From positions 1-21,330 of the IMG/VR virus record IMGVR_UViG_3300037071_001253: DNA of 21,330 nt; one strand, 5' to 3'. Both the position numbers and the translations under genes were made by a program. The DNA is from a virus. Numbering within the stretch: the stretch's first letter is position 1; each line of letters opens with the position of its first letter. Shown here one piece after another: positions 1 to 21,330 of the stretch. A model generated the notes under the pieces. It searched no databases, was not told where the DNA came from, and worked only from the letters and a program-made list of their open reading frames with translations.

Positions 1-270
1 TGTGGGCTCGTCATAAAGAATCGCTTGAATCTCCGTTTCAAAGCAGATGATGAACGCTCCCTCACCCTCCAGCCAAATCTTCACACCCGCATAACCAGAG
101 AATAGAACATAATCTCCCGGCTTAAGATAACGAACGTTTGGTCCTACATACTTCACGATACCTTGATCCGCACGTTCTTTCGCCATGTCAGGAATTATAA
201 TCCCGCCAGGACTTTCGTCGGGGTCCACTATGGGAGTTATTGCGACTTTGTTTCCTTGTAGGTCTAGCAT
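1..270 (-). CDS. GroES-like co-chaperonin (3' end beyond window)
   Basis: The gene starts at the ATG complementary to 268-270 and stays open through 90 codons to the window edge, so the C-terminus is missing. The protein shows the GroES/Cpn10 pattern: an early strand (NKVAITPI, residues 7-14), a mobile-loop equivalent with GGIIIPD at 22-28, then GIVKYVGP (38-45) and LKPGDYVLF (49-57), which is the beta-barrel signature of the family. In the family these proteins form a ring lid over a GroEL-type chaperonin; T4 gp31 is the classic phage example and is needed to fold the capsid protein. No GroEL is visible here, so a host GroEL is the likely partner. A purine-rich AAAGAAGAAAG precedes the ATG as a weak ribosome site. 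The start overlaps the upstream HNH gene by 83 bp, which is unusually long. Confidence 0.88.
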   Translation of the reverse strand, partial: MLDLQGNKVAITPIVDPDESPGGIIIPDMAKERADQGIVKYVGPNVRYLKPGDYVLFSGYAGVKIWLEGEGAFIICFETEIQAILYDEPT

Positions 271-730
271 CTTTCTTCTTTCTTTTCTTGTATGGTTTAG
301 CCAACCACGCTGCAAAAGCTTTACGAATTTGTTGTCTAAGCAATTCAAGATGATGCGGATTAGGCATTTGATTCTTTATCTGACATACTCTAGCGTACTC
401 ATAGACCGGCTTCATAAGCGGTTGATAAAGTACGTGCACATTTTTATGGTGGCGAGAGCACAACCAAACAATATCTTCGGGTAGGAAACTGACGTAGCGC
501 CGAGCATAGTATTCAGGTAGAATTTTAGCGAACGCCATTTCACTACCTATATGATGGCGCTGCATTTTGTCCTTAGCCTTACCACACTTGGCGCATTTTT
601 TAACAACCGTAACTCTCGTCAAGTTACAGTTAAAGTTTACGTCAGGTTCATCCCTCCCATAGATTCTTATCCAGTTAGCTACTCGTTCCTTCCATTCCAA
701 CAACGCTTTCGTTTGGTACATTTTCGCCAT
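188..730 (-). CDS. HNH-type zinc-binding endonuclease candidate
   Basis: This 180-residue basic protein has the cysteine/histidine layout of HNH nucleases: CAKC at 46-49, RHH at 58-60 as the candidate catalytic start, and C91, H94, H95 and H99 (LCSRHHKNVH) as the closing half. In phages such proteins nick or cut DNA, often near packaging or replication genes, or are free-standing homing enzymes. The C-terminal 50 residues are strongly basic and partly encoded inside the start of the GroES-like gene, so this tail may be expendable. A GGAG lies 5 nt before the ATG. It is the first gene after a short gap (731-796). The HNH assignment is fairly sure; the substrate is unknown. Confidence 0.7.
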   Translation of the reverse strand: MAKMYQTKALLEWKERVANWIRIYGRDEPDVNFNCNLTRVTVVKKCAKCGKAKDKMQRHHIGSEMAFAKILPEYYARRYVSFLPEDIVWLCSRHHKNVHVLYQPLMKPVYEYARVCQIKNQMPNPHHLELLRQQIRKAFAAWLAKPYKKRKKKDARPTRKQSRNNSHSGPRRKSWRDYNS

Positions 731-2828: not shown

Positions 2829-3208
2829 TAGATTTTTCCCTCCAGCATAATGGAAGTGTTCGCCCACATCTTACTGTCTTGTAGCTGTCGTATCGCGTGA
2901 GTGCGATCGGCGCAGCGCGGACATAGTGCAAGTATCATCTTGGCAAGATAAGCATACATCTTAGCCAAATCTTCCATTAGAACAATTTGTTGCTGTGTAG
3001 GAACATGATGCTTGAACCGCTCATTAATCTCATTCAGATCACGAATGATCTGTTCTGAGGCTGCTTGCATATCTTCCCTAGCTTTGTCCATTACAACTTC
3101 TTCTACTCTCTCTTTAAGCTGTGCTTCTTCTGCCAGATGATCTGGATCACTCTGACGAATAGCATCTTCTACGATTGGCTCGTTATTTCCCTTTGGCTCG
3201 TTGTCCAT
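2828..3208 (-). CDS. Acb2/Tad1-like nucleotide-sponge candidate
   Basis: The protein is 126 residues. The N-terminal 60 are acidic and predicted helical. Residues 64-123 match the pattern I know from the small phage family now called Acb2/Tad1 (DUF7681): RFKHHVP at 64-70 (family: RF-YH-P), a helix ending in LCPRCADR at 95-102 (family: LCP-SRE), and a final helix AIRQLQDSKMWANTSI at 105-120 (family: A-TKLEEA-MWAN-AI). Characterised members bind the cyclic nucleotide or gcADPR signals of CBASS and Thoeris and so shut off these defences. The long N-terminal extension is unusual for the family. GGAGG lies 7 nt before the ATG. The gene overlaps the Sak4-like gene by 26 bp and the miniprotein by TAATG. 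Family placement is from memory of motifs, not a search. Confidence 0.72.
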   Translation of the reverse strand: MDNEPKGNNEPIVEDAIRQSDPDHLAEEAQLKERVEEVVMDKAREDMQAASEQIIRDLNEINERFKHHVPTQQQIVLMEDLAKMYAYLAKMILALCPRCADRTHAIRQLQDSKMWANTSIMLEGKI

Positions 3209-8186: not shown

Positions 8187-8260
8187 TGCTCCATATTGGA
8201 ATCGAACCAATAGCCTACTGATTAAAAGTCAGTTGCTCTAGCCAATTGAGCTAATGGAGC
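8187..8260 (-). tRNA. tRNA-Lys (UUU anticodon)
   Basis: A complete 74-nt cloverleaf on the minus strand. It has a 7-bp acceptor stem (GCTCCAT/ATGGAGC), a D stem GCTC/GAGC, an anticodon stem ACTGA/TCAGT with loop CTTTTAA (anticodon TTT), a 5-nt variable loop, a T stem ATTGG/CCAAT with loop TTCGATT, and discriminator A. No CCA is encoded. It lies downstream of tRNA-Gln in the same transcript, and its 3' end touches the next gene. Confidence 0.97.
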
Positions 8261-8369
8261 GAAATGGGTTGGTTATATATCCTATCCGTGCCCGGAAGCT
8301 TTCTGTGGCTATGCGGTTTCCGTTTATGGCTAGCTCTTCCACATACTTACTTGTCAGATATATAACCAT
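8238..8369 (-). CDS. Possible 43-aa ORF between the two tRNAs
   Basis: The ATG begins on the discriminator base of tRNA-Gln and has a strong GGAGGG 5 nt upstream, inside the tRNA T-arm and acceptor. The frame ends in a TAG within tRNA-Lys. The peptide (start MVIYLTSKYVEEL) has ordinary composition. It repeats the arrangement at tRNA-Lys, where a gene also starts at the tRNA 3' end with its ribosome site in the tRNA. Against it, the stretch can equally be read as a structured RNA spacer, and the length is short. Confidence 0.25.
   Translation of the reverse strand: MVIYLTSKYVEELAINGNRIATESFRARIGYITNPFRSISSIG
8271..8367 (-). ncRNA. Structured segment A between tRNA-Gln and tRNA-Lys
   Basis: A perfect 11-bp inverted repeat (GGTTATATATC at 8271-8281 and its complement at 8357-8367) closes a 97-nt segment. 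Inside are a second pair (GGAAG 8294-8298 with CTTCC 8336-8340) and a small CGG-TTT-CCG hairpin (8314-8322). No T-arm can be fitted, so it is not a canonical tRNA. It may be a processing spacer or an independent RNA. A short ORF overlaps it. Confidence 0.35.
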
Positions 8370-8440
8370 TGCATCCCTCCGATTCGAACGGAGATTACTG
8401 TGATCCAAAGTCACAGGACTTGCCATTAGTCGAGGATGCA
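8369..8440 (-). tRNA. tRNA-Gln (UUG anticodon)
   Basis: A complete 72-nt cloverleaf on the minus strand. The acceptor stem is TGCATCC/GGATGCA, the D stem GACT/AGTC, the anticodon stem TGTGA/TCACA with loop CTTTGGA (anticodon TTG), and the T stem CTCCG/CGGAG with loop TTCGAAT. The discriminator is A and no CCA is encoded. The normal glutamine anticodon and the absence of in-frame stops in neighbouring genes indicate the standard genetic code. Confidence 0.97.
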
Positions 8441-8609: not shown

Positions 8610-8876
8610 TTACGGCGGTGGAGCAGGTGGAGTCCAATCATCAATTACATCTTCTTGTGATTCGAGGACTTCAAAATTCTTGAACTCCTCACCCTTCGCA
8701 AGAAAAGCGTAATTGCCAAACGTCTTTGTACGTCCACCAAAATGCAGATCATCAGCTGCATCCAGAACTCCAACTTCCTCTAGAGCATCAGTAACTCTGT
8801 CAATCGACAGTCCTGCAAGCTCTAGATCCAAATACGCCAACACCAAATTTACAACTTTCGCTGAGACTTGAATCAT
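8610..8876 (-). CDS. Unknown protein, 88 aa
   Basis: Not recognised. The N-terminal 40 residues are predicted helical (VVNLVLAYLDLELAG, then VTDALEEVGVL). The middle contains HFGGRTKTFGNYAFLAKGEEF, and the tail is proline-rich (WTPPAPPP). The protein is acidic. A strong GGAGG lies 6 nt before the ATG, which follows the upstream stop by one base. It is the last protein gene before the tRNA region. Confidence 0.62.
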   Translation of the reverse strand: MIQVSAKVVNLVLAYLDLELAGLSIDRVTDALEEVGVLDAADDLHFGGRTKTFGNYAFLAKGEEFKNFEVLESQEDVIDDWTPPAPPP

Positions 8877-8877
8877 T

Positions 8878-9051
8878 TTAAGCCTCCTTCACAACTCCGG
8901 TCGGCGCGTCAAGCGGAACGCCCAACGCATTCATTTCCTCAACTGCCCACTTCTTCAACGTATCAGCGGAAGCCTTGTCAGTACGCATCAGCGCGCTCAT
9001 TTCGGCGAGCGAGCAAGCACCACTCTTAACGATGTAAGAAAGCGCGGTCAT
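8878..9051 (-). CDS. Small helical protein, 57 aa
   Basis: Read directly: ATG at 9051, TAA at 8878-8880. The product (start MTALSYIVKSGACSLAEMSAL) looks like two or three helices with an Ala/Leu/Met pattern typical of small DNA-binding or chaperone-like domains, but no family is recognised. AAGGA stands about 8 nt before the start within the end of the upstream gene, and its own stop overlaps the strong GGAGG of the next gene. Placement in the operon supports it. Confidence 0.6.
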   Translation of the reverse strand: MTALSYIVKSGACSLAEMSALMRTDKASADTLKKWAVEEMNALGVPLDAPTGVVKEA

Positions 9052-9053
9052 TA

Positions 9054-9428
9054 TTATGTATCCTTTTCTTGTGAGACTTCGGGTGCATTAATAATTGATT
9101 CTGGCTTAACTGATCCCGGCAAGTAACCACCACGCGGCATAAAGATTAGACAGCCGTGCGTATCATCACGACCACAATACTGGTATTCTTTGTAGAGCAA
9201 ACCCTCTTTCACCAATACATCTGTAATTTCATTGGCGGGGAGCGTATCCCAAGGTACGTTTGTGTACTTCTTTACTAGCTTGCTAACGTATCCTATCGAG
9301 ATGTTTTTCTGCATGAACTCTACAACCTTCCTAACAAACTCTTCGTTTTCTTCCTGTAGTATTCTAGTGAGGTCAACGTATTGTTGGAACGCTGTCATAT
9401 GGTCCCCCATGACCCCAAGGTAACACAT
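9054..9428 (-). CDS. Unknown protein, 124 aa, winged-helix-like
   Basis: Not recognised. Residues about 25-85 could form helices followed by a short beta wing (FVRKVVEFMQKN, YVSKLVKKYTNVPWDTLPANEITDVLVKEGLLY), which is the feel of a small winged-helix domain. Three ATGs lie close together (9428, 9410, 9398). The first has AAGGG 6 nt upstream and is kept; the third has GGGGGA and is the main alternative. A TTGACA hexamer lies at 9436-9441 on this strand, but no -10 follows it. Confidence 0.58.
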   Translation of the reverse strand: MCYLGVMGDHMTAFQQYVDLTRILQEENEEFVRKVVEFMQKNISIGYVSKLVKKYTNVPWDTLPANEITDVLVKEGLLYKEYQYCGRDDTHGCLIFMPRGGYLPGSVKPESIINAPEVSQEKDT

Positions 9429-9459
9429 TGCCTTCCCTTTGTCAAGCCCCCCTCCTATA

Positions 9460-9903
9460 TTAAAGTGGCCGAATCATATCTTTGAAGTGCAGTGTACGGT
9501 AGTTATGGTGTATGTCGCTGAGAAGATTCTGAGCCTTCTCTGAATACTCTGGACTGTACATAAGATATTCCAGATTATCCATTTCATTCATGTTGAACAT
9601 CCTACGGATATCACGCACTGCATCGTTGTAACCCATGTCACGAATCTTCCTACGTTCTGCTATAGCAAGTGATCGTTCGTATTCTTCTCGTCGTCCAAGC
9701 CTAGGCTTGTCATAACTTCTGGCGTAGTGAGGAAAGCGGAGATAAAAAGTAAGCTCACGATACAGTCGAACCACCCAATTAACAGGTACAATCCATGCAA
9801 TCCGCCTGCCTGTATCAAAGTCATGATATGCTAGTCCCATGTACGGCGGAATAGATTCACCTTCACGAATGTATGCTTTGAGTTTAAGCTTTTCGGTAAT
9901 CAT
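9460..9903 (-). CDS. Unknown basic protein, 147 aa
   Basis: Not recognised. The protein is rich in Arg, Tyr and Trp. An N-terminal beta region (LKAYIREGESIPPYMGLAYHD, then RRIAWIVPVNWVVRLYREL) is followed by charged helices (YERSLAIAERRKIRDMGYND) and a Tyr-rich end. The ATG overlaps the stop of the 24-aa membrane peptide (ATGA), with AAGAAAG before it. Confidence 0.6.
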   Translation of the reverse strand: MITEKLKLKAYIREGESIPPYMGLAYHDFDTGRRIAWIVPVNWVVRLYRELTFYLRFPHYARSYDKPRLGRREEYERSLAIAERRKIRDMGYNDAVRDIRRMFNMNEMDNLEYLMYSPEYSEKAQNLLSDIHHNYRTLHFKDMIRPL

Positions 9904-11115: not shown

Positions 11116-11195
11116 TTGCGACTCCCGATGTATTGGAATAATGCCCATATCGCATAGAGGAAAAGCGCGAAGATGATTTCTCCCCATGTGTTCAT
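11112..11195 (-). CDS. Membrane micropeptide, 27 aa
   Basis: The ATG at 11195 overlaps the helicase stop (ATGA) with TGAGG 5 nt before it, and the TGA overlaps the next ATG. The peptide (MNTWGEIIFALFLYAIWALF then QYIGSRK) is a single hydrophobic helix rich in aromatic residues with a basic end. Three coupled genes in a row (27, 35 and 85 aa) follow the helicase in this way. Confidence 0.55.
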   Translation of the reverse strand: MNTWGEIIFALFLYAIWALFQYIGSRK

Positions 11196-13480
11196 GGTAG
11201 CCTCAATTCACTCTTGAGCTTCTTGAGCAAATCCTTCACGATTGATTCATCACCTGTTACTTCATGTCCATCTACAACCTGTCCAATAATCATGAGCTTC
11301 GTATCAAGCAAGTCCCAAATCCAATTCTCGATTGTGGGATTCGCAAGCATGTAGTATGCTGATGCGCCATGCATGTTGCTGATACGTCCATAACAACGTC
11401 CGATCATCTGCATGAAGTCTTTGGGCGTCCAGAATAGATCGTTGAATACAACGTGACGGCCCATTGTGAGATTCAATCCTTCGCGTGCAACTGCTGATGC
11501 AACGAGGAAGTGAATGTTCGGATTCTCTTGAAACTCTTTCTCTGCTGCACGACGATCAACTTCGCTAACTTGTCCTGTCATTACTACTGCTTCTCCGCCG
11601 AGTCTGCGAGCAATAGCATTAGCAATTGGGACAAATTGCGTGAAGATAAGTACCTTCTTGTTGGGCTCATTATCTGGCGCTGAATCGTAAAGCTCAACAG
11701 CGAATTCTGCTGTTGCGTTAATCTTGTCGATCGCGCATACCTGCTTGAGACGCATGATCTGCACGAGTACATTGGGAACTTTCTTTTCTGCTCCTGCTTC
11801 CGCTGGATTCCAGTCTGCAAGAACAGTATACAATCCCTGCAATACCTTATCATACAGCTTCTTCGCTTTCTTGCTCAACGTGTGATAACGCACGATGTGT
11901 TCAACTTCTGGCAACTCAAGGATCACATCACGCTTGTATCTGCGGATCATGATTGGCTTGAGCAATTCATGCAACTCGCCAACGTTGCGTGGGAAACGTC
12001 CATCTTTGGAGTAGCTATTGCAGAATCGTGTGAAGCTGTTGTAAATGTCAGGCTGAACACAATTGAGAAGCGGCCAAAGTTCATCAACGCGATTCACAAT
12101 CGGCGTACCTGAGAATCCTCCAAATCCTTTGGCGCATGCAGCAAGACGGCGCATCGCTTGTGATTGTGCAGCATCTACATTCTTGATGTAGTGAATCTCA
12201 TCAGCGAGAACCAATTCAGGCTGCAAGATTTCCATAATCTCAAGCCACGGCCAAACTTCAGTCTTACGCTTCACAATCGCGCGTGTGCCATCAGGCATAT
12301 CTTCTTCGCCCATTTCTTCATGCTCCTCATTCCAACGCAATGAATCGTAACTCATTACATAGAATGTGTACTTACGCTTGAGCATGAGCATTGCGATATG
12401 CTTATCAGGCTGGCGTCCGCTAAGTTGAATGCCTTCCTCACCTGCAAACTTCTTAATCTCAGCAAGCCAATTGCTTACCAAGTTAGCAGGACACACGATA
12501 AGCACATTCGGATTGTAAAGCGGATCACCTGTTTCTACACGCTTCTGTTCACGCATACGCAATGCAATACCAATTGCTTGACAAGTCTTGCCGAGTCCCA
12601 TTTCATCACAATTGAGGAAGCGAAGATTCACCGCTTCTGCAAATGCAATTCCTGCCTTCTGAAACGGGCGAGCTTTCCAAGGTTCCTTGAACATTGCATT
12701 AACTTCTGCGTACATATTCTCATCCAGCGTGCTCTTATTCTGCTGAATGTCAATCACCTTGAGTCTTGCTTCTGCACTATCACTTGCTTGTTTCAATGCT
12801 TCATCAGTCCACTTCACGATTCCATCTTCGTTAGTTGGATTGATAGTTTGTGCTGCTGCAAACAAACGCCATCCTTCACTCAACGGAATGTACCATCCAC
12901 GTGAGTCCATATCCCAACGCTTGCCGGGAATACCATTACAGAATGAGGTATCCGACAAATCGCTGATACATGATACAATGTAGAATTTGTTGCTGATGCT
13001 AATATCGTATAGTGCGCTTGACCTATTGTCAGTAATCGCATTCAACGTATCAGCATCATACTTCAGCTTACACTTGGGGATTTCACCAATGGCGACAGAC
13101 GCTTGAAGCTTGCGATAATCTGCAAGATCAACACTGTTGTAGCGTCCATCATATTTACGGGAGGGAAGATTCATCATCGCAGCAACAACATCGGCGCGAT
13201 AGGGATTCATACGAATCCATACCTTTGTACTAACTGGAGACTTCACAACACGCATCACAACTAAGTCTACATCAACTAGCGACTTGATGTAGAAGTGATG
13301 TGCCATCATTGTACGTGCTTCATCAATACCATTACTCAATGATTCATAAGCAATGGCAAGTCTTTCATCCTCAGCTTCCTTATCACGCGCAATCTTCAAC
13401 TCTTTCGCTGCGCGTATTTCAGCCAAGCGCATAAGCAACTGCGCTTCCTCATCATCTTCTTCATGTAGTGGGTTAGACAT
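11192..13480 (-). CDS. HARP-domain SNF2-family helicase/translocase (SMARCAL1-like)
   Basis: Starting at the ATG at 13480 (AGGA 6 nt upstream; an in-frame upstream ATG lies inside the previous gene), the protein has 762 residues. Residues 1-50 are a charged coil. Residues 184-208 (start IPGKRWDMDSRGWYIPL) match a HARP motif, and a related but weaker stretch may lie at 88-125. The SNF2 core is complete: motif I DEMGLGKT at 292-299, motif II DEIH at 427-430, motif III SGTP at 457-460, VASAVAREGLNL at 660-671 and motif VI QMIGRCYGR at 691-699. HARP-SNF2 proteins rewind single strands and remodel forks; in phages they may act like T4 UvsW in fork rescue and recombination. It is the largest gene of the leftward block. 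Confidence 0.93.
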   Translation of the reverse strand: MSNPLHEEDDEEAQLLMRLAEIRAAKELKIARDKEAEDERLAIAYESLSNGIDEARTMMAHHFYIKSLVDVDLVVMRVVKSPVSTKVWIRMNPYRADVVAAMMNLPSRKYDGRYNSVDLADYRKLQASVAIGEIPKCKLKYDADTLNAITDNRSSALYDISISNKFYIVSCISDLSDTSFCNGIPGKRWDMDSRGWYIPLSEGWRLFAAAQTINPTNEDGIVKWTDEALKQASDSAEARLKVIDIQQNKSTLDENMYAEVNAMFKEPWKARPFQKAGIAFAEAVNLRFLNCDEMGLGKTCQAIGIALRMREQKRVETGDPLYNPNVLIVCPANLVSNWLAEIKKFAGEEGIQLSGRQPDKHIAMLMLKRKYTFYVMSYDSLRWNEEHEEMGEEDMPDGTRAIVKRKTEVWPWLEIMEILQPELVLADEIHYIKNVDAAQSQAMRRLAACAKGFGGFSGTPIVNRVDELWPLLNCVQPDIYNSFTRFCNSYSKDGRFPRNVGELHELLKPIMIRRYKRDVILELPEVEHIVRYHTLSKKAKKLYDKVLQGLYTVLADWNPAEAGAEKKVPNVLVQIMRLKQVCAIDKINATAEFAVELYDSAPDNEPNKKVLIFTQFVPIANAIARRLGGEAVVMTGQVSEVDRRAAEKEFQENPNIHFLVASAVAREGLNLTMGRHVVFNDLFWTPKDFMQMIGRCYGRISNMHGASAYYMLANPTIENWIWDLLDTKLMIIGQVVDGHEVTGDESIVKDLLKKLKSELRLP

Positions 13481-13619
13481 TGTTGATCCTATACTTTGTT
13501 GCAGCGAAGTATGCTGCAATCATAATTACAAGCGCCTGCATTCCGAAAAACTTGTATGCTGCTGACAACGTAACGGCAATCATCAGCAAATCGAGGAGGA
13601 AACTCATTACTTTGTACAT
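13473..13619 (-). CDS. Two-helix membrane miniprotein, 48 aa
   Basis: The ATG at 13619 overlaps the preceding stop (TAATG), and the TAA lies 8 bp inside the helicase gene. The sequence (start MYKVMSFLLDLLMIAVTLSA) shows a first hydrophobic helix at about 5-20, a short KFFG turn and a second helix at about 26-40 before a basic tail (TKYRINNV). This fits a membrane hairpin with a cytoplasmic C-terminus. No family is recognised. Confidence 0.55.
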   Translation of the reverse strand: MYKVMSFLLDLLMIAVTLSAAYKFFGMQALVIMIAAYFAATKYRINNV

Positions 13620-14028: not shown

Positions 14029-14288
14029 CCTTCCAACTTCATCAAATCATCATCAACTGCAATGATACCAACGATTGCATTCGTATCAAGCGGAGTCTCG
14101 CTTGTGAATACGCTGCCAAGCCATTCCAAATAATAATGCAGCGCATGCTGACACATCTTGTATTCTTGCTTGTACCAACTAATGGGATGTGATGCACCAT
14201 CATTCATTCCATCCAAGCAAATTTCAAGATGCTTGGTGAAGATTGCACGTTCTGCAACAATGAACGCACTATCATAACTACTTGACAT
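14016..14288 (-). CDS. Unknown protein, 90 aa
   Basis: The ATG at 14288 (MSSSYDSAFIVAERAIFTKH) is chosen over upstream in-frame codons because GGAGG stands 9 nt before it. The protein is mainly helical with Trp, Tyr and His residues in the middle (WYKQEYKMCQHALHYYLEWL) and an acidic C-terminal strand (AIVGIIAVDDDL). The start overlaps the first gene of the operon by 11 bp. No family is recognised. Confidence 0.58.
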   Translation of the reverse strand: MSSSYDSAFIVAERAIFTKHLEICLDGMNDGASHPISWYKQEYKMCQHALHYYLEWLGSVFTSETPLDTNAIVGIIAVDDDLMKLEGWTQ

Positions 14289-14811
14289 TGTGAGATTCCT
14301 CCTTCGCGCGTTCGATATATGCAGCAAGCTTGATATGTGCAGCGGCTTGCAATTCCCACAAGTTTAACGTGTCGGAATGAACGGTAACTGCGAGTTTCGT
14401 TATCGTATCTTGCACATAAAGATGCGTGGTCTTACGGTATTGCAGGCGTCCGCTTTGTACAATCTTCTCAGCGTGACGTATTGCAGAATCTTCGTGAATC
14501 GTAACTGACTCTGCATCAATTTCCTTGTGTTCAATGGGAGCATTTGGCGCAGTGAAGATACCAATGATACGCATGATTTCTTCTGCGTAATCTTGAATGC
14601 TTCCGGTCACATAAGGATGTGACGCCCACTTGGCTACAATGATACCATTTTCATTTCTCACAATCTTCTTTGCACCGCCATGCATTGCACACATGAATTC
14701 ACAACGCATCACGATTCCAAATTCTGCCGCTTTCTTCGCGGCTACTTCCGCATACATTGGTGAAAGCGCGCTCAATTGCGCATGTATGTCAGAGTAAGAA
14801 AGATTTTCCAT
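14278..14811 (-). CDS. First gene of the leftward operon, unknown, 177 aa
   Basis: Not recognised. The N-terminal half is helical and contains two Cys residues in RCEFMCAMHGGAKKIV. The C-terminal half reads as strands and helices (KTTHLYVQDTITKLAVTVHS, then LWELQAAAHIKLAAYIERA). Two starts compete: GTG at 14820 with AAGGA 4 nt before it, and ATG at 14811 with GGTGA 5 nt before it. The ATG is preferred but not certain. It lies about 119 nt downstream of the expected sigma54 transcription start at 14930, so it heads the long leftward block. Confidence 0.58.
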   Translation of the reverse strand: MENLSYSDIHAQLSALSPMYAEVAAKKAAEFGIVMRCEFMCAMHGGAKKIVRNENGIIVAKWASHPYVTGSIQDYAEEIMRIIGIFTAPNAPIEHKEIDAESVTIHEDSAIRHAEKIVQSGRLQYRKTTHLYVQDTITKLAVTVHSDTLNLWELQAAAHIKLAAYIERAKEESHNVK

Positions 14812-14919
14812 AAAATTCACCGCATCCTTTCAAATAATATTGCGCGAGACATTTTTCTACCACCTTGCAAGTTAACTAATTAGTCTAACCTAAATTGTCA
14901 CAATTGCGTAACGATTTGG

Positions 14920-14957
14920 TGGCACGGCTCTTGATGCACATGCAAGAATCGTGCCAA
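14920..14957. repeat. Dyad of two facing -24 boxes
   Basis: TGGCACG occurs on the plus strand at 14920-14926 and on the minus strand at 14950-14956, with CTCTTG/CAAGAA-type arms inside, giving a hairpin-like dyad of about 13 pairs. The plus-strand box lacks the -12 GC (TTGAT), so only the minus one should promote. The dyad spans the expected transcription start and might bind a regulator. Confidence 0.5.
14941..14956 (-). promoter_or_regulatory. Sigma54 (-24/-12) promoter of the leftward block
   Basis: The minus strand reads TTGGCACGATTCTTGCA, a complete match to the sigma54 consensus TGGCACG-N4-TTGCW, with GG and GC separated by exactly 10 bp. The start would fall near 14930, giving a leader of about 119 nt before the first gene. 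Sigma54 promoters need an AAA+ activator bound upstream, and none is encoded in the window. Confidence 0.75.
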
Positions 14958-14969
14958 GATTTTGTGATA

Positions 14970-15284
14970 TTATTCACCGCCTTCTTTATCAAAATCACCG
15001 TAAGTATCTACTAGCCTAACGATTGTAGTTTCAGGTACAACATCGTACTCGATTAGCTTTACATTAGCTTTGTTAAGAATCACAATCTTAGTATGATTCT
15101 TTCTATTGCGCCGACTGATTGCAAGATACATCATAAAGACATTCATCTCAGGGTATAAATCTAGCGTGTGTTCCTCGATGAATGCGTATGCTTCACCGCG
15201 CGTATTGAATGGTTTCAATCCCATTCTCAATTTGTTCTTGAATACACTATATTTATACTGCTTAATCTCCTCAATGACTGACAT
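14970..15284 (-). CDS. Unknown protein, 104 aa
   Basis: Not recognised. The N-terminal 45 residues are basic with a helix (TRGEAYAFIEEHTLDLY), followed by hydrophobic MNVFMMYLAISRR, a Lys-rich strand (KIVILNKANVKLIEYDVV) and an acidic end. AAGGA lies 8 nt before the ATG, which is 4 nt past the upstream stop, so it is co-transcribed with the 123-aa gene. It ends just upstream of the sigma54 box. Confidence 0.58.
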   Translation of the reverse strand: MSVIEEIKQYKYSVFKNKLRMGLKPFNTRGEAYAFIEEHTLDLYPEMNVFMMYLAISRRNRKNHTKIVILNKANVKLIEYDVVPETTIVRLVDTYGDFDKEGGE

Positions 15285-15288
15285 ATAG

Positions 15289-15660
15289 TTATTCCTTCTT
15301 CTTCATCAAATCAAACGGATTAGGTATAGGCTTTGTGTTATCTGCTACAATATCATCAATCTCAGCCATCAATGATTCCTTGCTTACTTCTACCTTGTGA
15401 ATGTGATAATAGATACGCTCATTACGCTTACGAAAGTACACAATCACAAGTGCATACGTTTCTTCGTTGTCTGCACAATGCTTACTATGCAATGTGTATT
15501 GCACATCACAAGGAAATTGTTTGGTGCGAATAAGCAAATCCATAATATGCTCACGCGCCCTCGATACAGATATAAACTGATGATCTACTTCTGATTCTAC
15601 TTCATTCGTTGATGGATCTTTAATGCGTATCACATATCTATAGATCGCTGACGTTCCCAT
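15289..15660 (-). CDS. Unknown protein, 123 aa
   Basis: Not recognised. The first two thirds look like a beta-rich domain: YRYVIRIKDPSTNEVESEV, then DVQYTLHSKH, then YALVIVYFRKRNERIYYHIH. A charged helical tail ends in KKKE. AGGA stands 9 nt before the ATG. It is the first gene left of the large inverted-repeat region, and I see no convincing promoter for it other than AT-rich sequence at 15753-15804. Confidence 0.58.
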   Translation of the reverse strand: MGTSAIYRYVIRIKDPSTNEVESEVDHQFISVSRAREHIMDLLIRTKQFPCDVQYTLHSKHCADNEETYALVIVYFRKRNERIYYHIHKVEVSKESLMAEIDDIVADNTKPIPNPFDLMKKKE

Positions 15661-15692
15661 TTCACACTATCCTTTCTGACCATTTACATATG

Positions 15693-15856
15693 AGCGATAG
15701 GTACCCCCTATCTACCTATACCTATGCCGTGCGTGTCGGCCTCTCTGTGGGGAAATTTGTTTTCTATTTTATATATTATTATATATATTTATATTCACAA
15801 AATACCCGCCCGACACGCACGGTACACCTATAGGTACATAGCCCCTACCTATCGCT
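15693..15856. repeat. 164-bp near-symmetric inverted repeat with AT-rich core, candidate origin
   Basis: Arms 15693-15739 and 15810-15856 are exactly equal in length. The outer 11 bp (AGCGATAGGTA) and inner 13 bp (CCGTGCGTGTCGG) match perfectly, and the 23 bp between them match at 14 positions. Seven of the nine mismatches are C facing C on the plus strand (CCCC, C, CC). The arms also hold repeated TACCTAT/ATAGGTA motifs at 15697, 15713, 15830 and 15846, like iterons. The core at 15753-15804 is almost pure A/T and could unwind easily. No gene lies in 15661-15971. The layout fits a replication origin, but a partition or regulatory site is possible. Confidence 0.6.
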
Positions 15857-15926
15857 AAAATCATTTTTGCTTTTACTCTTTAACCTACTGATTTTTATTC
15901 GCTGGAATCCTGGCATACGGGAAACA

Positions 15927-15952
15927 CGAAAACCCCCGCATTTCTGCGGGAG
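15927..15952 (-). terminator. Rho-independent terminator of the 140-aa gene
   Basis: The minus strand forms CCCGCA-GAAA-TGCGGG (15950-15945 and 15940-15935) with a tetraloop, followed by GGTTTTCGTGTTT. It lies about 20 nt past the stop codon at 15972, isolating this gene from the origin-like region. Confidence 0.85.
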
Positions 15953-15971
15953 TCCTCGTATTCCTGGGCTC

Positions 15972-16394
15972 TTAATATCCGAGCGCCGCGAACAGTTCTG
16001 CCTTGTGCTTCTCCAATTCGTCGGCTGTCGCGTTCTTCGCCTTCGCCTTGAAATCGTCGATGAGCGAAGCCTTTGCAGCTTTCGACATTCCGCGTTCCTC
16101 GAAGATGTATTCGAAAGCTGCCTTGATTCCGCTTTCGATTCTCTCCGCGATATTCGCATCTGCCTTTGCGGTGCGAACGGGCGCCGTACCTGCTTGCGTC
16201 GCCTTCGTATCGTACATCGAATTGACGAGAGTTACAACGCCATTCTCGCCACCAACTTCCGCCAACACTGCGGAGAAACCTTCGGGCGACTCGTCAAATT
16301 GCTTGACCCGAATTTCATACTCAACCTTTTTGTCACCTTGAGCCTTAACCTTCGGCTCAACCTTCTTCGTGATAAACTTGAAACCCGTAGACAT
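15972..16394 (-). CDS. Unknown G+C-rich gene with its own promoter, 140 aa
   Basis: Not recognised. An N-terminal beta part with many Lys residues (KFITKKVEPKVKAQGDKKVE) is followed by a Gly-rich segment and a helical, Ala/Lys-rich C-terminal half (start SKAAKASLIDDFKAKAKNA). The codon choice is visibly richer in G and C than in the leftward block, which suggests high expression or separate origin. GGGAG lies 8 nt before the ATG. The gene has a strong sigma70-type promoter, a palindrome in its leader and its own terminator, so it is a stand-alone unit, the arrangement expected of an early-expressed phage gene. Confidence 0.7.
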   Translation of the reverse strand: MSTGFKFITKKVEPKVKAQGDKKVEYEIRVKQFDESPEGFSAVLAEVGGENGVVTLVNSMYDTKATQAGTAPVRTAKADANIAERIESGIKAAFEYIFEERGMSKAAKASLIDDFKAKAKNATADELEKHKAELFAALGY

Positions 16395-16418
16395 TTTTTC
16401 GACTCCCGATTGTATATT

Positions 16419-16435
16419 CTAGGATTCGGTCCTAG
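16419..16435. promoter_or_regulatory. Palindrome in the leader of the 140-aa gene
   Basis: CTAGGATTCGGTCCTAG is a perfect 6-bp inverted repeat around a 5-nt loop. It lies between the expected transcription start (about 16446) and the ribosome site, so it is either an operator or a 5' mRNA hairpin. Confidence 0.45.
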
Positions 16436-16451
16436 CGCCGTAACTACCTAC

Positions 16452-16480
16452 ATAATAGCGCCTTGCCTCCGTCCTGTCAA
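16452..16480 (-). promoter_or_regulatory. Strong sigma70 promoter of the 140-aa gene
   Basis: The minus strand has a perfect -35 hexamer TTGACA (16480-16475), a 17-bp spacer and a -10 hexamer TATTAT (16457-16452). The expected start is near 16446. This is the clearest sigma70 promoter in the window and contrasts with the sigma54-type boxes elsewhere. Confidence 0.85.
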
Positions 16481-16488
16481 GAGCCAAC

Positions 16489-16531
16489 CTGACCCCTTCC
16501 CTGCCTACCTACTGACCCCGCCTAGCCTACC
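16489..16531. repeat. Imperfect direct repeat upstream of the sigma70 promoter
   Basis: CTGACCCC occurs at 16489 and 16512, each followed by a similar GCCTACC element (16503 and 16525), giving two copies of about 20 bp offset by 22-23 bp. The offset of about two helical turns and the position just upstream of the -35 fit tandem binding sites for a regulator. Confidence 0.4.
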
Positions 16532-16564
16532 GATTTTTTTCGCGGTGGCGTTTTTGCTGGCGCT

Positions 16565-16630
16565 TCACTTCGCGCGGGCGCGTGCAATTTCGCAAGCGAG
16601 CCAAGCGAGCCAAAGCGCGAACGCGCACAT
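16565..16630 (-). CDS. Possible hydrophobic micropeptide, 21 aa
   Basis: The ATG at 16630 has one of the best ribosome sites in the window (AAGGAGG, 8 nt away). It codes for a Trp/Leu/Ala-rich hydrophobic stretch (MCAFALWLAWLACEIARA, then RAK) with a basic end: a short membrane-active or membrane-anchored peptide. It lies after the terminator of the 57-aa gene, so it would need read-through or an unseen promoter. The underlying DNA contains GGCTCGCTT repeats, so chance is possible. Confidence 0.35.
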   Translation of the reverse strand: MCAFALWLAWLACEIARARAK

Positions 16631-16670
16631 TTTTTTGTCCTCCTTTCCGCCTGGACGATTTAGGGACATT

Positions 16671-16703
16671 CGCGGGAGAAAGACCCGGCGATGTTTTGCC
16701 GGG
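16671..16703 (-). terminator. Rho-independent terminator of the 57-aa gene
   Basis: The minus strand forms CCCGGC-AAAACATC-GCCGGG (16703-16698 and 16689-16684), followed by TCTTTCT. It lies 19 nt after the stop codon at 16722. Confidence 0.75.
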
Positions 16704-16721
16704 CCATTCTCGCGGAGCCGA

Positions 16722-16895
16722 CTAGTAAAGCTTGTCGGCAAGGTTGAGGAGATTCCACCGCTCGTTGTCGAGCGTCGAACGGCGCGCGTCGATGCGGTCC
16801 ATCTGGCGCAGCTTCGCTGCGGCCTGCGCGTTCGCGATCTTGCGGAATGCATCGGCCTGCTTCTGCGTGAGGGTGATGCTCTTGTCTCCGTACAT
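16722..16895 (-). CDS. Small helical G+C-rich protein, 57 aa
   Basis: Read directly: ATG at 16895 with GGAGA 7 nt before it, TAG at 16722. The product (start MYGDKSITLTQKQADAFRKI) is almost entirely one amphipathic helical region rich in Ala, Arg, Lys and Asp, ending in NLADKLY. It is the only protein gene between a sigma54-type promoter and a terminator, and its codons are very G+C-rich, like the 140-aa gene. Short single-gene units of this type often encode host-takeover proteins or late regulators, but nothing here identifies it. Confidence 0.62.
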   Translation of the reverse strand: MYGDKSITLTQKQADAFRKIANAQAAAKLRQMDRIDARRSTLDNERWNLLNLADKLY

Positions 16896-16913
16896 TTTTC
16901 TGTCTCCGCGTTG

Positions 16914-16933
16914 TGTGAGAGAGATTTCTCACA
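16914..16933 (-). promoter_or_regulatory. Hairpin at the 5' end of the 57-aa gene's transcript
   Basis: TGTGAGA (16914-16920) and TCTCACA (16927-16933) form a 7-bp stem with a 6-nt loop. The expected start from the sigma54 box is near 16934, so the transcript would begin with this hairpin, which may protect it from decay. An operator role is the alternative. Confidence 0.5.
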
Positions 16934-16944
16934 ACATCATATAT

Positions 16945-16960
16945 AGCAATGAGCGTGCCA
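16945..16960 (-). promoter_or_regulatory. Sigma54 (-24/-12) promoter of the 57-aa gene
   Basis: The minus strand reads TGGCACG-CTCA-TTGCT, a full match to the sigma54 consensus with 10 bp between GG and GC. The start would be near 16934, followed by a hairpin, a ribosome site and the ATG at 16895. Confidence 0.72.
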
Positions 16961-16992
16961 TATGCTTCCGCCTCTTAATATGCAATGAAGCG

Positions 16993-17073
16993 TGGCATGA
17001 TTGTTGGGTACGTTGCATCAGCGCCTCGATGTGGTGAGACAATGCCGCAGTTATTTCTGGCACGATTCTTAAC
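16993..17073 (+). promoter_or_regulatory. Two sigma54-like boxes with defective -12 elements
   Basis: TGGCATG-ATTG-TTGGG (16993-17008) and TGGCACG-ATTC-TTAAC (17058-17073) keep a good -24 element but lack the -12 GC. The second is identical to the promoter at 14941-14956 through its first 13 bases. They may be decayed promoters or binding sites that hold the polymerase without starting transcription. Confidence 0.4.
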
Positions 17074-17099
17074 TCATTGCACCGCAACGGGTTACCTGC

Positions 17100-17115
17100 T
17101 GGCATGACTCTTGCA
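17100..17115 (+). promoter_or_regulatory. Sigma54 (-24/-12) promoter of the rightward block
   Basis: TGGCATG-ACTC-TTGCA matches the sigma54 consensus except C to T at one tolerated -24 position, with 10 bp between GG and GC. The start would lie near 17126, giving a leader of about 270 nt before the first clear rightward gene at 17395. Confidence 0.68.
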
Positions 17116-17141
17116 TGGCGGGGAGGGGGATAAAACGTGAC

Positions 17142-17231
17142 ATGCTCGGAGCACGAAGCCTTTGCGAGAATACGCGAATCAAAATTATAAACATGAAAAA
17201 TAATTTACAAAAAAATTTTATTAGAAAATAA
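17142..17231 (+). CDS. Possible leader ORF, 29 aa
   Basis: An ATG 16 nt after the predicted start of the rightward transcript, behind a G-run (GGGG) that could serve as a ribosome site. The peptide (start MLGARSLCENTRIKIINMKN) is basic and Asn-rich. It might be a leader peptide or chance. Confidence 0.22.
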   Translation: MLGARSLCENTRIKIINMKNNLQKNFIRK

Positions 17232-17394
17232 TATCACGATTCTGATGCTTCCCCCACCGTCCCGTAAGTGGGTACAGGGCAACGGTTTAGAGGGTGTCTT
17301 TGGCGCACCCATACGGGCTTGCGGCGCACTGACGAATGTGGTAATATGATAGGTCACGGGCAAATATAATTGCTAATTATATGAAAGACTGTAT
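17232..17394 (+). other. Structured leader before the rightward genes
   Basis: No gene is seen here. Two short hairpins can be drawn: CCCAC 17253-17257 with GTGGG 17268-17272, and GGGTG 17292-17296 with CACCC 17306-17310. A weak sigma70-like pair (TTGCGG, 17 bp, TAATAT) ends near 17347. The stretch could carry an anti-termination or attenuation signal, but no known class is recognised. Confidence 0.3.
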
Positions 17395-17546: not shown

Positions 17547-18221
17547 ATGTCTCAATCTAATCTAGCTGAAAAAGAAATGTTGTTGGATGCGCTTGATGCG
17601 AAAGTTGATTCGCAAAACTCTAGCGCGCACAATGCGCCAATCATTTCTTCACAAGTTCCTTCTGGGGACGCTAACGCTAATGCGGCGGCTGCTGTCGGCG
17701 TTCTCAAATTTGATCGGCGCCGTAAGGTTCTCAAGAAGTCGGCTTCTTACAATCCAGCAACATGGAAGCCGATGTATGATGCAATCATCATGGATCTTGT
17801 TATCTTTGGTAGCAAGAAGAAGGATATAGCTGCACGTTTCAAAGTCACTCCACAAACAGTTTCCAATATCATCAATTGCGAACAGGGTAAGATCAAGATT
17901 CGCGCCGCACAAGAACGTGTACGCGAAACCATGATCCGTAGTATTCCTCAGCGCATGGGTGACATTGCTGAAAAGTTTGTGAATCGTATGGAAGAATTTG
18001 CAGCTGATGATACGCTGTACGAGAAGTCTCCATTTGCTGTGATTGATCGTGGTATGCGTTTCATGCAAGGTACCAGACTTCTCAGCGTACAAGATAATGT
18101 GAATACTTCTCCAGCATCATCTTTGCCAGCTGTATCTGAAAAAGCAATGGATCGTTTGTCACATGCGCTAGAGCGTATCAACGAATCCATTAATCCTCCA
18201 CAACAGAGGATCGGAGCCTGA
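17547..18221 (+). CDS. Putative terminase small subunit
   Basis: The 224-residue protein has a disordered N-terminus (1-50), a basic stretch (RRRKVLKK) and a helix-turn-helix at about 78-110 (KKKDIAARFKVTPQTVSNII). An amphipathic helical region follows (IPQRMGDIAEKFVNRMEEF), which could oligomerise. HTH plus coiled region, length and position a few genes ahead of TerL fit a small terminase that recognises the packaging site on phage DNA. It could alternatively be another HTH DNA-binding protein. AAAGG lies about 12 nt before the ATG. Confidence 0.6.
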   Translation: MSQSNLAEKEMLLDALDAKVDSQNSSAHNAPIISSQVPSGDANANAAAAVGVLKFDRRRKVLKKSASYNPATWKPMYDAIIMDLVIFGSKKKDIAARFKVTPQTVSNIINCEQGKIKIRAAQERVRETMIRSIPQRMGDIAEKFVNRMEEFAADDTLYEKSPFAVIDRGMRFMQGTRLLSVQDNVNTSPASSLPAVSEKAMDRLSHALERINESINPPQQRIGA

Positions 18222-19723: not shown

Positions 19724-21330
19724 GTGTCTGACGAAATTATAATTCCCGATCTTCCATCACCGTCAGACGTTGCCAAGGCAAGGAGAAGTGCAGAGAAGAA
19801 ATTTTCTCACCTCACACAGGAGCAAATCAGACACCTGCGTAGGTTGTGTAAGAAGAACAATTTTTTTCTCTGCACCTCCCTTGGCTACATATCACTAAAC
19901 AATAGTTATCATCGTGACTCTGTTTGTAGGTGGGTAGATGAAACAAAAGGCCGTCAATACAGGCTCAAGCTTGATCCGCGTGGACATTTTAAGTCAACTA
20001 TTTTTACCACCACGGATTGCATTCAAACTGCTCTACCTGATGATGACGGAGATTCTCCGTATCCGTATTCTCTAGGTCCAGATGTTCGTATACTGATTGC
20101 GCACGAAATTGATAAGATGGCACAGCGCTTTCTATACGGCATCACACAGCATTTCATGACTAACGAAGTTCTCGTAGGTTTGTTTCCTGAATGTATTCCT
20201 GATCCGAAGAAGCAGCGCATCAATCAAGCTGAAATGCAGCTTCCTCGAAATGTTACATTCAACGAACCTACTTTTGATACGATTGGTTTGGGTGGCAGAG
20301 GACAGGGACGCCACTATAATAAGCTAAAGCTAGACGACATTATTGGTGACAAGGCTAGAGATTCTCAGACTGAGATGGAGAATGCGATACTTTGGTTTGA
20401 CAATATTCTCTCCTTTTACGATGATCCATCTCGGGATCAACTCGATATCACAGGCACGCGCTGGAGTCTCGATGACGTTTACGCTCACGCAATGGAAGTC
20501 TACGGCGACCAACTTGCTGTTTATACACGTTCGGTAGAAGAAATTGATAAGGATATAAAGTCACCAACATACGGGAAGAAAGTTCCAATCTTCCCTGAGC
20601 GTTTCCCGCCAAAGACTCTTGAGATTCTACGCAAGAACAAGAAGGTTTGGCTGGCGCAGTATATGAACGATCCGCAGTCAGGTGCAACTGAATTCTCTCC
20701 TGACTGGCTTAAATTCTTCAAGTGGGGCAATTTTACACAGAAGGGTATTTACAACACACTTTCTTCGAGAGTACGTTTCGGTGAACTTTCGAATGGTCAG
20801 TATAGGATTGATAAAGCTGTTGGTGATCTTGACCGCGTTATTTTTATTGATCCAGCTATCACAGGTGACTTGGGATACGTCATCACAGGAACGGATGAAC
20901 AAAGTAATATTTTTACATTAGATGAATTTGGTGGAGTAATGACTCCGCCTGAAATGGTGAATAGGTTGTTCAGAGACGTACAGAAGTGGCAGCCTAGGCT
21001 TGTATGCATTGAAGAAGTTCTGTTCTCTAAGTTGTACGAGTTTTATCTGCAAGCTGAGATGAAGCTTCGTCGCATCTTCTTCAATGTAGAACCGATCAAG
21101 ATTGGTAACAAGCAGAAGCCTATTCGTGTACGCGGACTCTCTAACTTCTTTGCATCCGGTAAAATCTTCTTTCATGAGTCGCAAGAAGGATTAATCGAGG
21201 AGTTCAAAGCTTTTGGCGCCACAGCTACATATCACCGACTCGATGCAATGAGTATGGGAATTGGAGTTTGGCGGGCTGCTGTATCTAAGAACACTTTGGA
21301 TAAGCAGCGTGAAGCAGAAGAAAGGCTTCT
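19724..21330 (+). CDS. terL: Terminase large subunit (3' end beyond window)
   Basis: GTG start at 19724 with AAGGA 8 nt before it, open to the window edge for 535 codons. The ATPase has the Walker A variant PRGHFKST at 85-92, Walker B KLDD at 202-205 and a coupling motif TGTRW. The nuclease half has FIDPA with D376, the strand CIEE (E430/E431) and HRLDAM with D507, the acidic triad of the RNase H-like headful or cos nuclease. TerL with the small subunit docks on the portal, cuts concatemeric DNA and pumps it into the prohead. The portal gene would be expected to follow beyond the edge. All key residues seen are intact. Confidence 0.95.
   Translation, partial: MSDEIIIPDLPSPSDVAKARRSAEKKFSHLTQEQIRHLRRLCKKNNFFLCTSLGYISLNNSYHRDSVCRWVDETKGRQYRLKLDPRGHFKSTIFTTTDCIQTALPDDDGDSPYPYSLGPDVRILIAHEIDKMAQRFLYGITQHFMTNEVLVGLFPECIPDPKKQRINQAEMQLPRNVTFNEPTFDTIGLGGRGQGRHYNKLKLDDIIGDKARDSQTEMENAILWFDNILSFYDDPSRDQLDITGTRWSLDDVYAHAMEVYGDQLAVYTRSVEEIDKDIKSPTYGKKVPIFPERFPPKTLEILRKNKKVWLAQYMNDPQSGATEFSPDWLKFFKWGNFTQKGIYNTLSSRVRFGELSNGQYRIDKAVGDLDRVIFIDPAITGDLGYVITGTDEQSNIFTLDEFGGVMTPPEMVNRLFRDVQKWQPRLVCIEEVLFSKLYEFYLQAEMKLRRIFFNVEPIKIGNKQKPIRVRGLSNFFASGKIFFHESQEGLIEEFKAFGATATYHRLDAMSMGIGVWRAAVSKNTLDKQREAEERL

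Follow-up and report, generated by a model that had tools for sequence, protein, structure and literature searches.

Examination of IMG/VR virus record IMGVR_UViG_3300037071_001253, considered here over its entire length of 21,330 bases (hereafter, the window), revealed a set of sequence elements of the -24/-12 type lying where the two oppositely oriented arms of a phage genome diverge and ahead of its helicase block. These elements are probably activator-dependent promoters read by the sigma54 RNA polymerase of the host. The record is classed as linear and is probably a fragment. The same phage is represented by four further public contigs that overlap the record or extend beyond it, with 99-100% identity over the parts compared, and these sister contigs add approximately 19 kb on the right; the phage family is known here from metagenomic contigs only. 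The left part of the window is read leftward (the early arm) and encodes a GroES-like protein, a kinase-like ATPase, a Sak4-like protein, an exonuclease and a SNF2-type helicase. The right part is read rightward (the packaging or late arm), starting with a probable small terminase followed by the large terminase, with the sister contigs continuing this arm with portal-, capsid- and tail-like genes.

In agreement with a preliminary description of this DNA, three sites were found to match the core TGGCAYG-N4-TTGCW with exact GG-N10-GC spacing, namely, TGGCACGATTCTTGCA at positions 14941-14956 (minus strand), TGGCACGCTCATTGCT at positions 16945-16960 (minus strand) and TGGCATGACTCTTGCA at positions 17100-17115 (plus strand). 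As had likewise been claimed, each of the three lies in a gene-free stretch, upstream of a gene block and correctly oriented toward it. The first heads the helicase arm, with a predicted leader of some 110 nt to the open reading frame (ORF) at 14278-14820, and has counterparts at equivalent places in two relatives (G008 and G016). The second heads the leftward arm, where a 57-residue ORF with a good ribosome-binding site follows after a leader predicted at some 39 nt. The third is directed at the packaging arm and has a long leader, with about 270 nt separating it from the first small plus-strand ORF. The sign of the GC skew flips at approximately 16.6-17.0 kb, close to the point at which the second and third sites diverge. 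The further claim that no comparable match occurs elsewhere held insofar as no other exact match was found in the window or in the 19 kb added by the sister contigs. It had, however, overlooked TGGCACGGCTCTTGAT at positions 14920-14935 (plus strand; weight-matrix score 15.9), which opposes the 14941-14956 site such that the two form a facing pair spanning 14920-14956, as well as two degenerate copies that share one gene-free stretch, these being TGGCATGATTGTTGGG at positions 16993-17008 (plus strand; score 11.5) and TGGCACGATTCTTAAC at positions 17058-17073 (plus strand; score 7.2; repeat family D5), the latter having lost the GC of the -12 element.

The quality of these sites was considered using a weight matrix built from 29 intergenic Salmonella sigma54 sites supported by chromatin immunoprecipitation (ChIP) (PMC3844500, Table 3), such that the matrix reflects the sites of a single enterobacterium. 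The training sites score between 15.1 and 21.2. With scores of 21.2 (14941-14956), 20.5 (17100-17115) and 19.5 (16945-16960), the three window sites thus sit among the best of the real ones. The comparison with shuffled sequence proposed in the preliminary description placed the window sites far above chance. Specifically, four sites in the window score at least 15, whereas 300 dinucleotide shuffles produced 0.24 such sites on average and never more than two, and the third-best score did not exceed 14.2 in any of the 300. The fifth-best score in the window, 12.7, is at the level of noise.

To a large extent, the placement of such sites is shared by related phages. Relatives were reached stepwise, from a portal through a terminase to a three-member capsid alignment that returned 43 loci, and eight larger relative contigs were taken, besides G006. 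Gene content around the helicase and the terminase is kept across these relatives. In six (G008, G016, G010, G011, G013 and G014), a site scoring at least 16 lies between the helicase and small terminase genes and is aimed at the early arm. When the eight genomes with a defined divergent zone, the window included, were considered together, 12 strong sites were counted in the 45,069 bases of the zone, as compared to four in the 301,729 bases outside it, corresponding to a 20-fold enrichment (binomial p = 2.5e-8, or 3.6e-6 when the window is excluded). Eleven of the 12 zone sites are aimed at the early arm. Sites are also found upstream of the orthologue of the gene at 15972-16394 in G008, G010, G011, G013 and G016, those in G008 (14.3) and G016 (11.3) being weak. 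In the closest relatives, an additional strong site (G008 30534, minus strand; G016 27053, plus strand), with a shared ATTC spacer, lies about 1 kb past the 3' end of the helicase gene and runs against the direction of the early arm. When control-region DNA was compared with phages and plasmids, only chance-level matches were obtained.

The manner in which the sites diverge was next considered. Alignable intergenic DNA from the G008/G016 and G011/G013 pairs yielded five homologous site pairs, matched by their flanks. In these, the core (TGGCA and TGC, eight positions) was free of differences (0 of 40), as opposed to 14 of 20 in the N4 spacer, the length of which remained constant. The Fisher p of 2e-9 for this contrast is optimistic, since the sites were first picked by a matrix that rewards the core; the pairs were nonetheless matched by flank, and three of the 10 sites compared do not reach the threshold of 16. 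Recognition by sigma54 would predict just such a pattern, with a spacer that drifts freely in sequence but not in length. A comparable contrast between core and spacer has been applied in E. coli (PMC4591121).

A second element, a candidate regulator site, accompanies the sites. At positions 17070-17094 (plus strand), just before the 17100-17115 site, the window contains a 25-bp palindrome, TAACTCATT-N7-AACGGGTTA, that differs from the consensus TAANTCRTT-N7-AAYGAGTTA at one position and is the best match to it in the window. In five phages, such a palindrome is found 4-6 bp ahead of the -24 box of a site, the others being at G008 26776, G016 31153, G011 14067 and G013 43667. For these five phages the consensus is circular, given that the palindrome was first spotted there by eye; like the facing-pair arrangement, it was discovered post hoc. 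The objective part of the observation is that each genome's best match to the palindrome adjoins a sigma54-type site, with 0-3 mismatches over 17 positions, by a margin that is clear in four of the genomes and of one mismatch in G013. With its two half-sites separated by 7 bp, the element could accommodate a dimer of a regulatory protein, which might either activate or repress.

Sigma54 polymerase stays inactive in the absence of an ATP-driven activator. As such, placing early phage genes under its control would tie infection to the physiology of the host, and the sites described here suggest that the window phage and several of its relatives link the start of gene expression to an activator-controlled host switch. 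In the mechanism envisaged, the RpoN-containing polymerase of the host would bind the -24/-12 sites in the divergent region and in front of the helicase operon. Activator-dependent initiation would then mainly serve the leftward early arm and, in the window phage, the rightward packaging arm too, with a regulator of host or phage origin probably switching or modulating the promoters from the adjacent palindrome. The nitrogen or stress signal put forward in the preliminary description is a hypothetical basis for such timing. If this reading is true, the host of the window phage has rpoN, which would exclude bacterial groups that do not. Most Actinomycetota and Cyanobacteria, for instance, are not known to carry rpoN.

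The sigma54 part of the earlier proposal finds good support in the sequence, in the form of scores equal to those of real sites, conserved placement, frozen -24 and -12 cores and a drifting spacer of fixed length; binding and transcription, and hence promoter activity, are inferred. Several points weigh against this assignment. No phage-encoded activator was found, in that neither PF00158 (enhancer-binding protein) nor PF04552 (sigma54 DNA-binding domain) was detected in 11 phage records, with control genomes giving matches; the host must therefore supply both, or else an unrecognised phage protein acts via the palindrome. The palindrome itself lies nearer the promoter than activator sites usually do. 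Alignments of portal and capsid to prokaryote genomes, aimed at the host, gave no match. Moreover, the zone holds no strong site in G009 or G015 and only a weak one (13.2) in G006, such that not every member of the family shares the feature. Finally, a simple promoter would not be expected to take the form of a facing pair, and a near-consensus sigma70-like promoter, considered below, is present on the minus strand at 16480-16452.

The facing arrangement is not confined to the window. Facing pairs of sigma54-type sites resembling that at 14920-14956 were found in at least 120 viral stretches. Among the matches listed, there were 87 distinct pairs, in which the gap from TTG to CAA was 5-9 bases in 70 cases, as compared to 12 cases for all gaps of 12-24 bases combined, an internal control that indicates a preferred spacing. 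The positions left free by the search pattern agree with the preferences of sigma54: among the matches listed, position 15 is C in 88%, position 16 is A or T in 83%, and the base preceding TGG is C or T in 81%. Facing pairs were within long ORFs in 41 of 96 cases among the matches listed, as opposed to the 77% expected from coverage. Some contigs (L122, L150, L154, L159 and L174, among loci L105-L183) hold arrays of three to four pairs. In an unrelated viral contig (L088, positions 8691-9656), 9-10 strong sites occupy both strands over about 1 kb, with the same sites appearing in L086; this cluster also holds repeated CAACGAGTTA-like words. In the Pseudomonas phage Kat (Pakpunavirus, ON361135; L223, L226 and L227), seven sites scoring at least 17.4 are found in two clusters (45197-46103 and 57472-57657) that include the facing pair TGGCACGCTAATTGCAATTGCAAAGATTGTGCCA. 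Several sigma54-type sites also lie near a change in gene direction in the cultured Vibrio phage D419 (OZ195672; L224, 2848-3489), among them a facing pair at 3008 (plus strand) and 3026 (minus strand). Formation of an RNA hairpin by a facing pair was considered and rejected, since inspection by eye showed no complementarity between the N4 spacers of the two sites. Tentatively, facing pairs of the form TGGCAYG-N4-TTG-N5to9-CAA-N4-CRTGCCA may constitute an element common to many phages, 33-37 bp long and sometimes arrayed, that would act as a promoter of symmetric form or as a trap for polymerase and by which unrelated phages could couple two-way transcription, or the availability of host sigma54, to the state of a host activator, with Kat offering a cultured example.

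Such pairs lend some weight to the main rival explanation, namely, that sigma54 polymerase does bind the sites but that these principally trap polymerase, form road-blocks or work in both directions, with closed complexes in facing pairs or clusters titrating sigma54 or controlling passing polymerases. The facing pair in the window, the preferred spacing and occasional arrays of such pairs elsewhere, and the crowding of sites on both strands of L088 would all be in keeping with this idea. It is nevertheless rather unlikely for the phage family considered here, where most sites are single or in tandem and directed at the early arm, many of them with plausible leaders. Also unlikely is the possibility that some other DNA-binding protein, such as a phage regulator, uses the motif as its operator, in a composite with the palindrome, and that the likeness to a sigma54 site is coincidental. 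The symmetry of facing pairs and of the palindrome does recall sites for dimers, and the degenerate copies in the window preserve TGGCAYG better than TTGC; against this, the pattern of fixed and free positions (15, 16 and the base before TGG) agrees with that of the sigma54 sites of unrelated phages and with the ChIP-based matrix.

A more doubtful proposal still is that sigma70-type promoters drive the arms, leaving the sigma54-like sites accessory or silent. On the minus strand at 16452-16480, the sequence TTGACA-N17-TATTAT, which agrees with the consensus at 11 of 12 positions, heads the gene at 15972-16394, and a second, weaker match is present at 17204-17232 (plus strand). A gene with a sigma70-like promoter of its own indicates that the phage does not rely on the sigma54-type sites alone, and the earlier wording of a sigma54-driven phage genome was accordingly too strong. 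The strong match, however, serves only this gene and those that follow it, not the three sites. When the pattern TTGACA-N16to18-TATAAT was sought at the 14941-14956, 16945-16960 and 17100-17115 sites, no match of at least 9 of 12 was found. Selection, moreover, retains sites of such quality in the relatives. Promoters of a T7-like phage RNA polymerase are disfavoured, as the sequences downstream of the sites share no initiation motif; no such polymerase was recognised among the ORFs read, with no profile search having been aimed at one. Lastly, chance resemblance, for which one could cite the post hoc choice of pattern and the few strong matches inside genes of the relatives (G009 27431, plus strand; G010 5328, minus strand), is contradicted by the shuffle test, the conserved placement and the divergence of spacer rather than core, and can be set aside as highly improbable.

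As to the genes flanking the sites, the SNF2-type helicase (11192-13519, minus strand; phrog_62, E 8.5e-92) is kept in the relatives and served as a landmark of the early arm, as did the 140-residue gene at 15972-16394 (minus strand), diverged orthologues of which occur in G008, G010, G011, G013 and G016, for the leftward arm. The first gene downstream of the 14941-14956 site is a 180-residue ORF (14278-14820, minus strand), while that after the 16945-16960 site is the 57-residue ORF (16722-16895, minus strand), preceded by a GGAG-type ribosome-binding site; both are taken from the ORF list, and family searches returned no match to either. At the head of the rightward arm, the probable small terminase or helix-turn-helix protein (17547-18221, plus strand) gave helix-turn-helix matches that are weak and below the cut-off, and precedes terL in most relatives. 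The large terminase subunit is encoded at 19724-21328 (plus strand; phrog_38, E 3.4e-52). Near the end of the early arm, the GroES-like gene (1-348, minus strand), identified by eye, is retained in the relatives. The early arm also encodes tRNA-Lys (ttt) and tRNA-Gln (ttg) at 8187-8440 (minus strand); an Rfam search matched a tRNA only. A large inverted repeat lies between two genes at 15688-15861, with 52-nt arms that are 79% complementary and an AT-rich centre of 70 nt. Next to it, the stretch from 15860 to 17190 is GC-rich (51-58%, as compared to about 43% for the phage) and contains two small genes, each apparently with a terminator of its own (near 15928-15955 and 16676-16720, as judged by eye), in addition to one sigma70-like promoter. 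This stretch may have been acquired.

The preliminary description held that sigma54-driven phage genomes are not commonly described. A precedent does exist, in that the record of the Pseudomonas phage YuA (NC_010116) contains three promoters noted by the depositors as -24/-12 and active (2000 MU), and phage promoters of this type are as such not wholly new; no further report was found. In the open-access literature, no report was found of conserved sigma54 sites in the early/late control region of a phage, of facing pairs in phages, or of the sigma54-type sites of Kat, and the PAK_P3 transcriptome paper makes no mention of sigma54. The recurrence of the sites within a phage family, together with related arrangements in many phages, one of them a cultured Pseudomonas phage, renders the idea directly testable.

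Relative to Salmonella sigma54 promoters such as those of glnA, pspA and hypA (PMC3844500), the window sites share the same core, GG-N10-GC spacing and range of scores. They differ in lying on a phage, at the divergence of the early and late arms, with degenerate copies and a facing pair nearby and with no activator gene identified. Like those of YuA, they are probable phage promoters that fit a -24/-12 description. The YuA promoters, by contrast, sit among structural genes in a different phage group, and no TGGCA-type site was detected when the annotated YuA strand was scanned with the matrix. Kat presents clustered and facing sigma54-type sites, as does the window; unlike the window phage, to which it is unrelated, Kat is cultured and its host, PAO1, is known.

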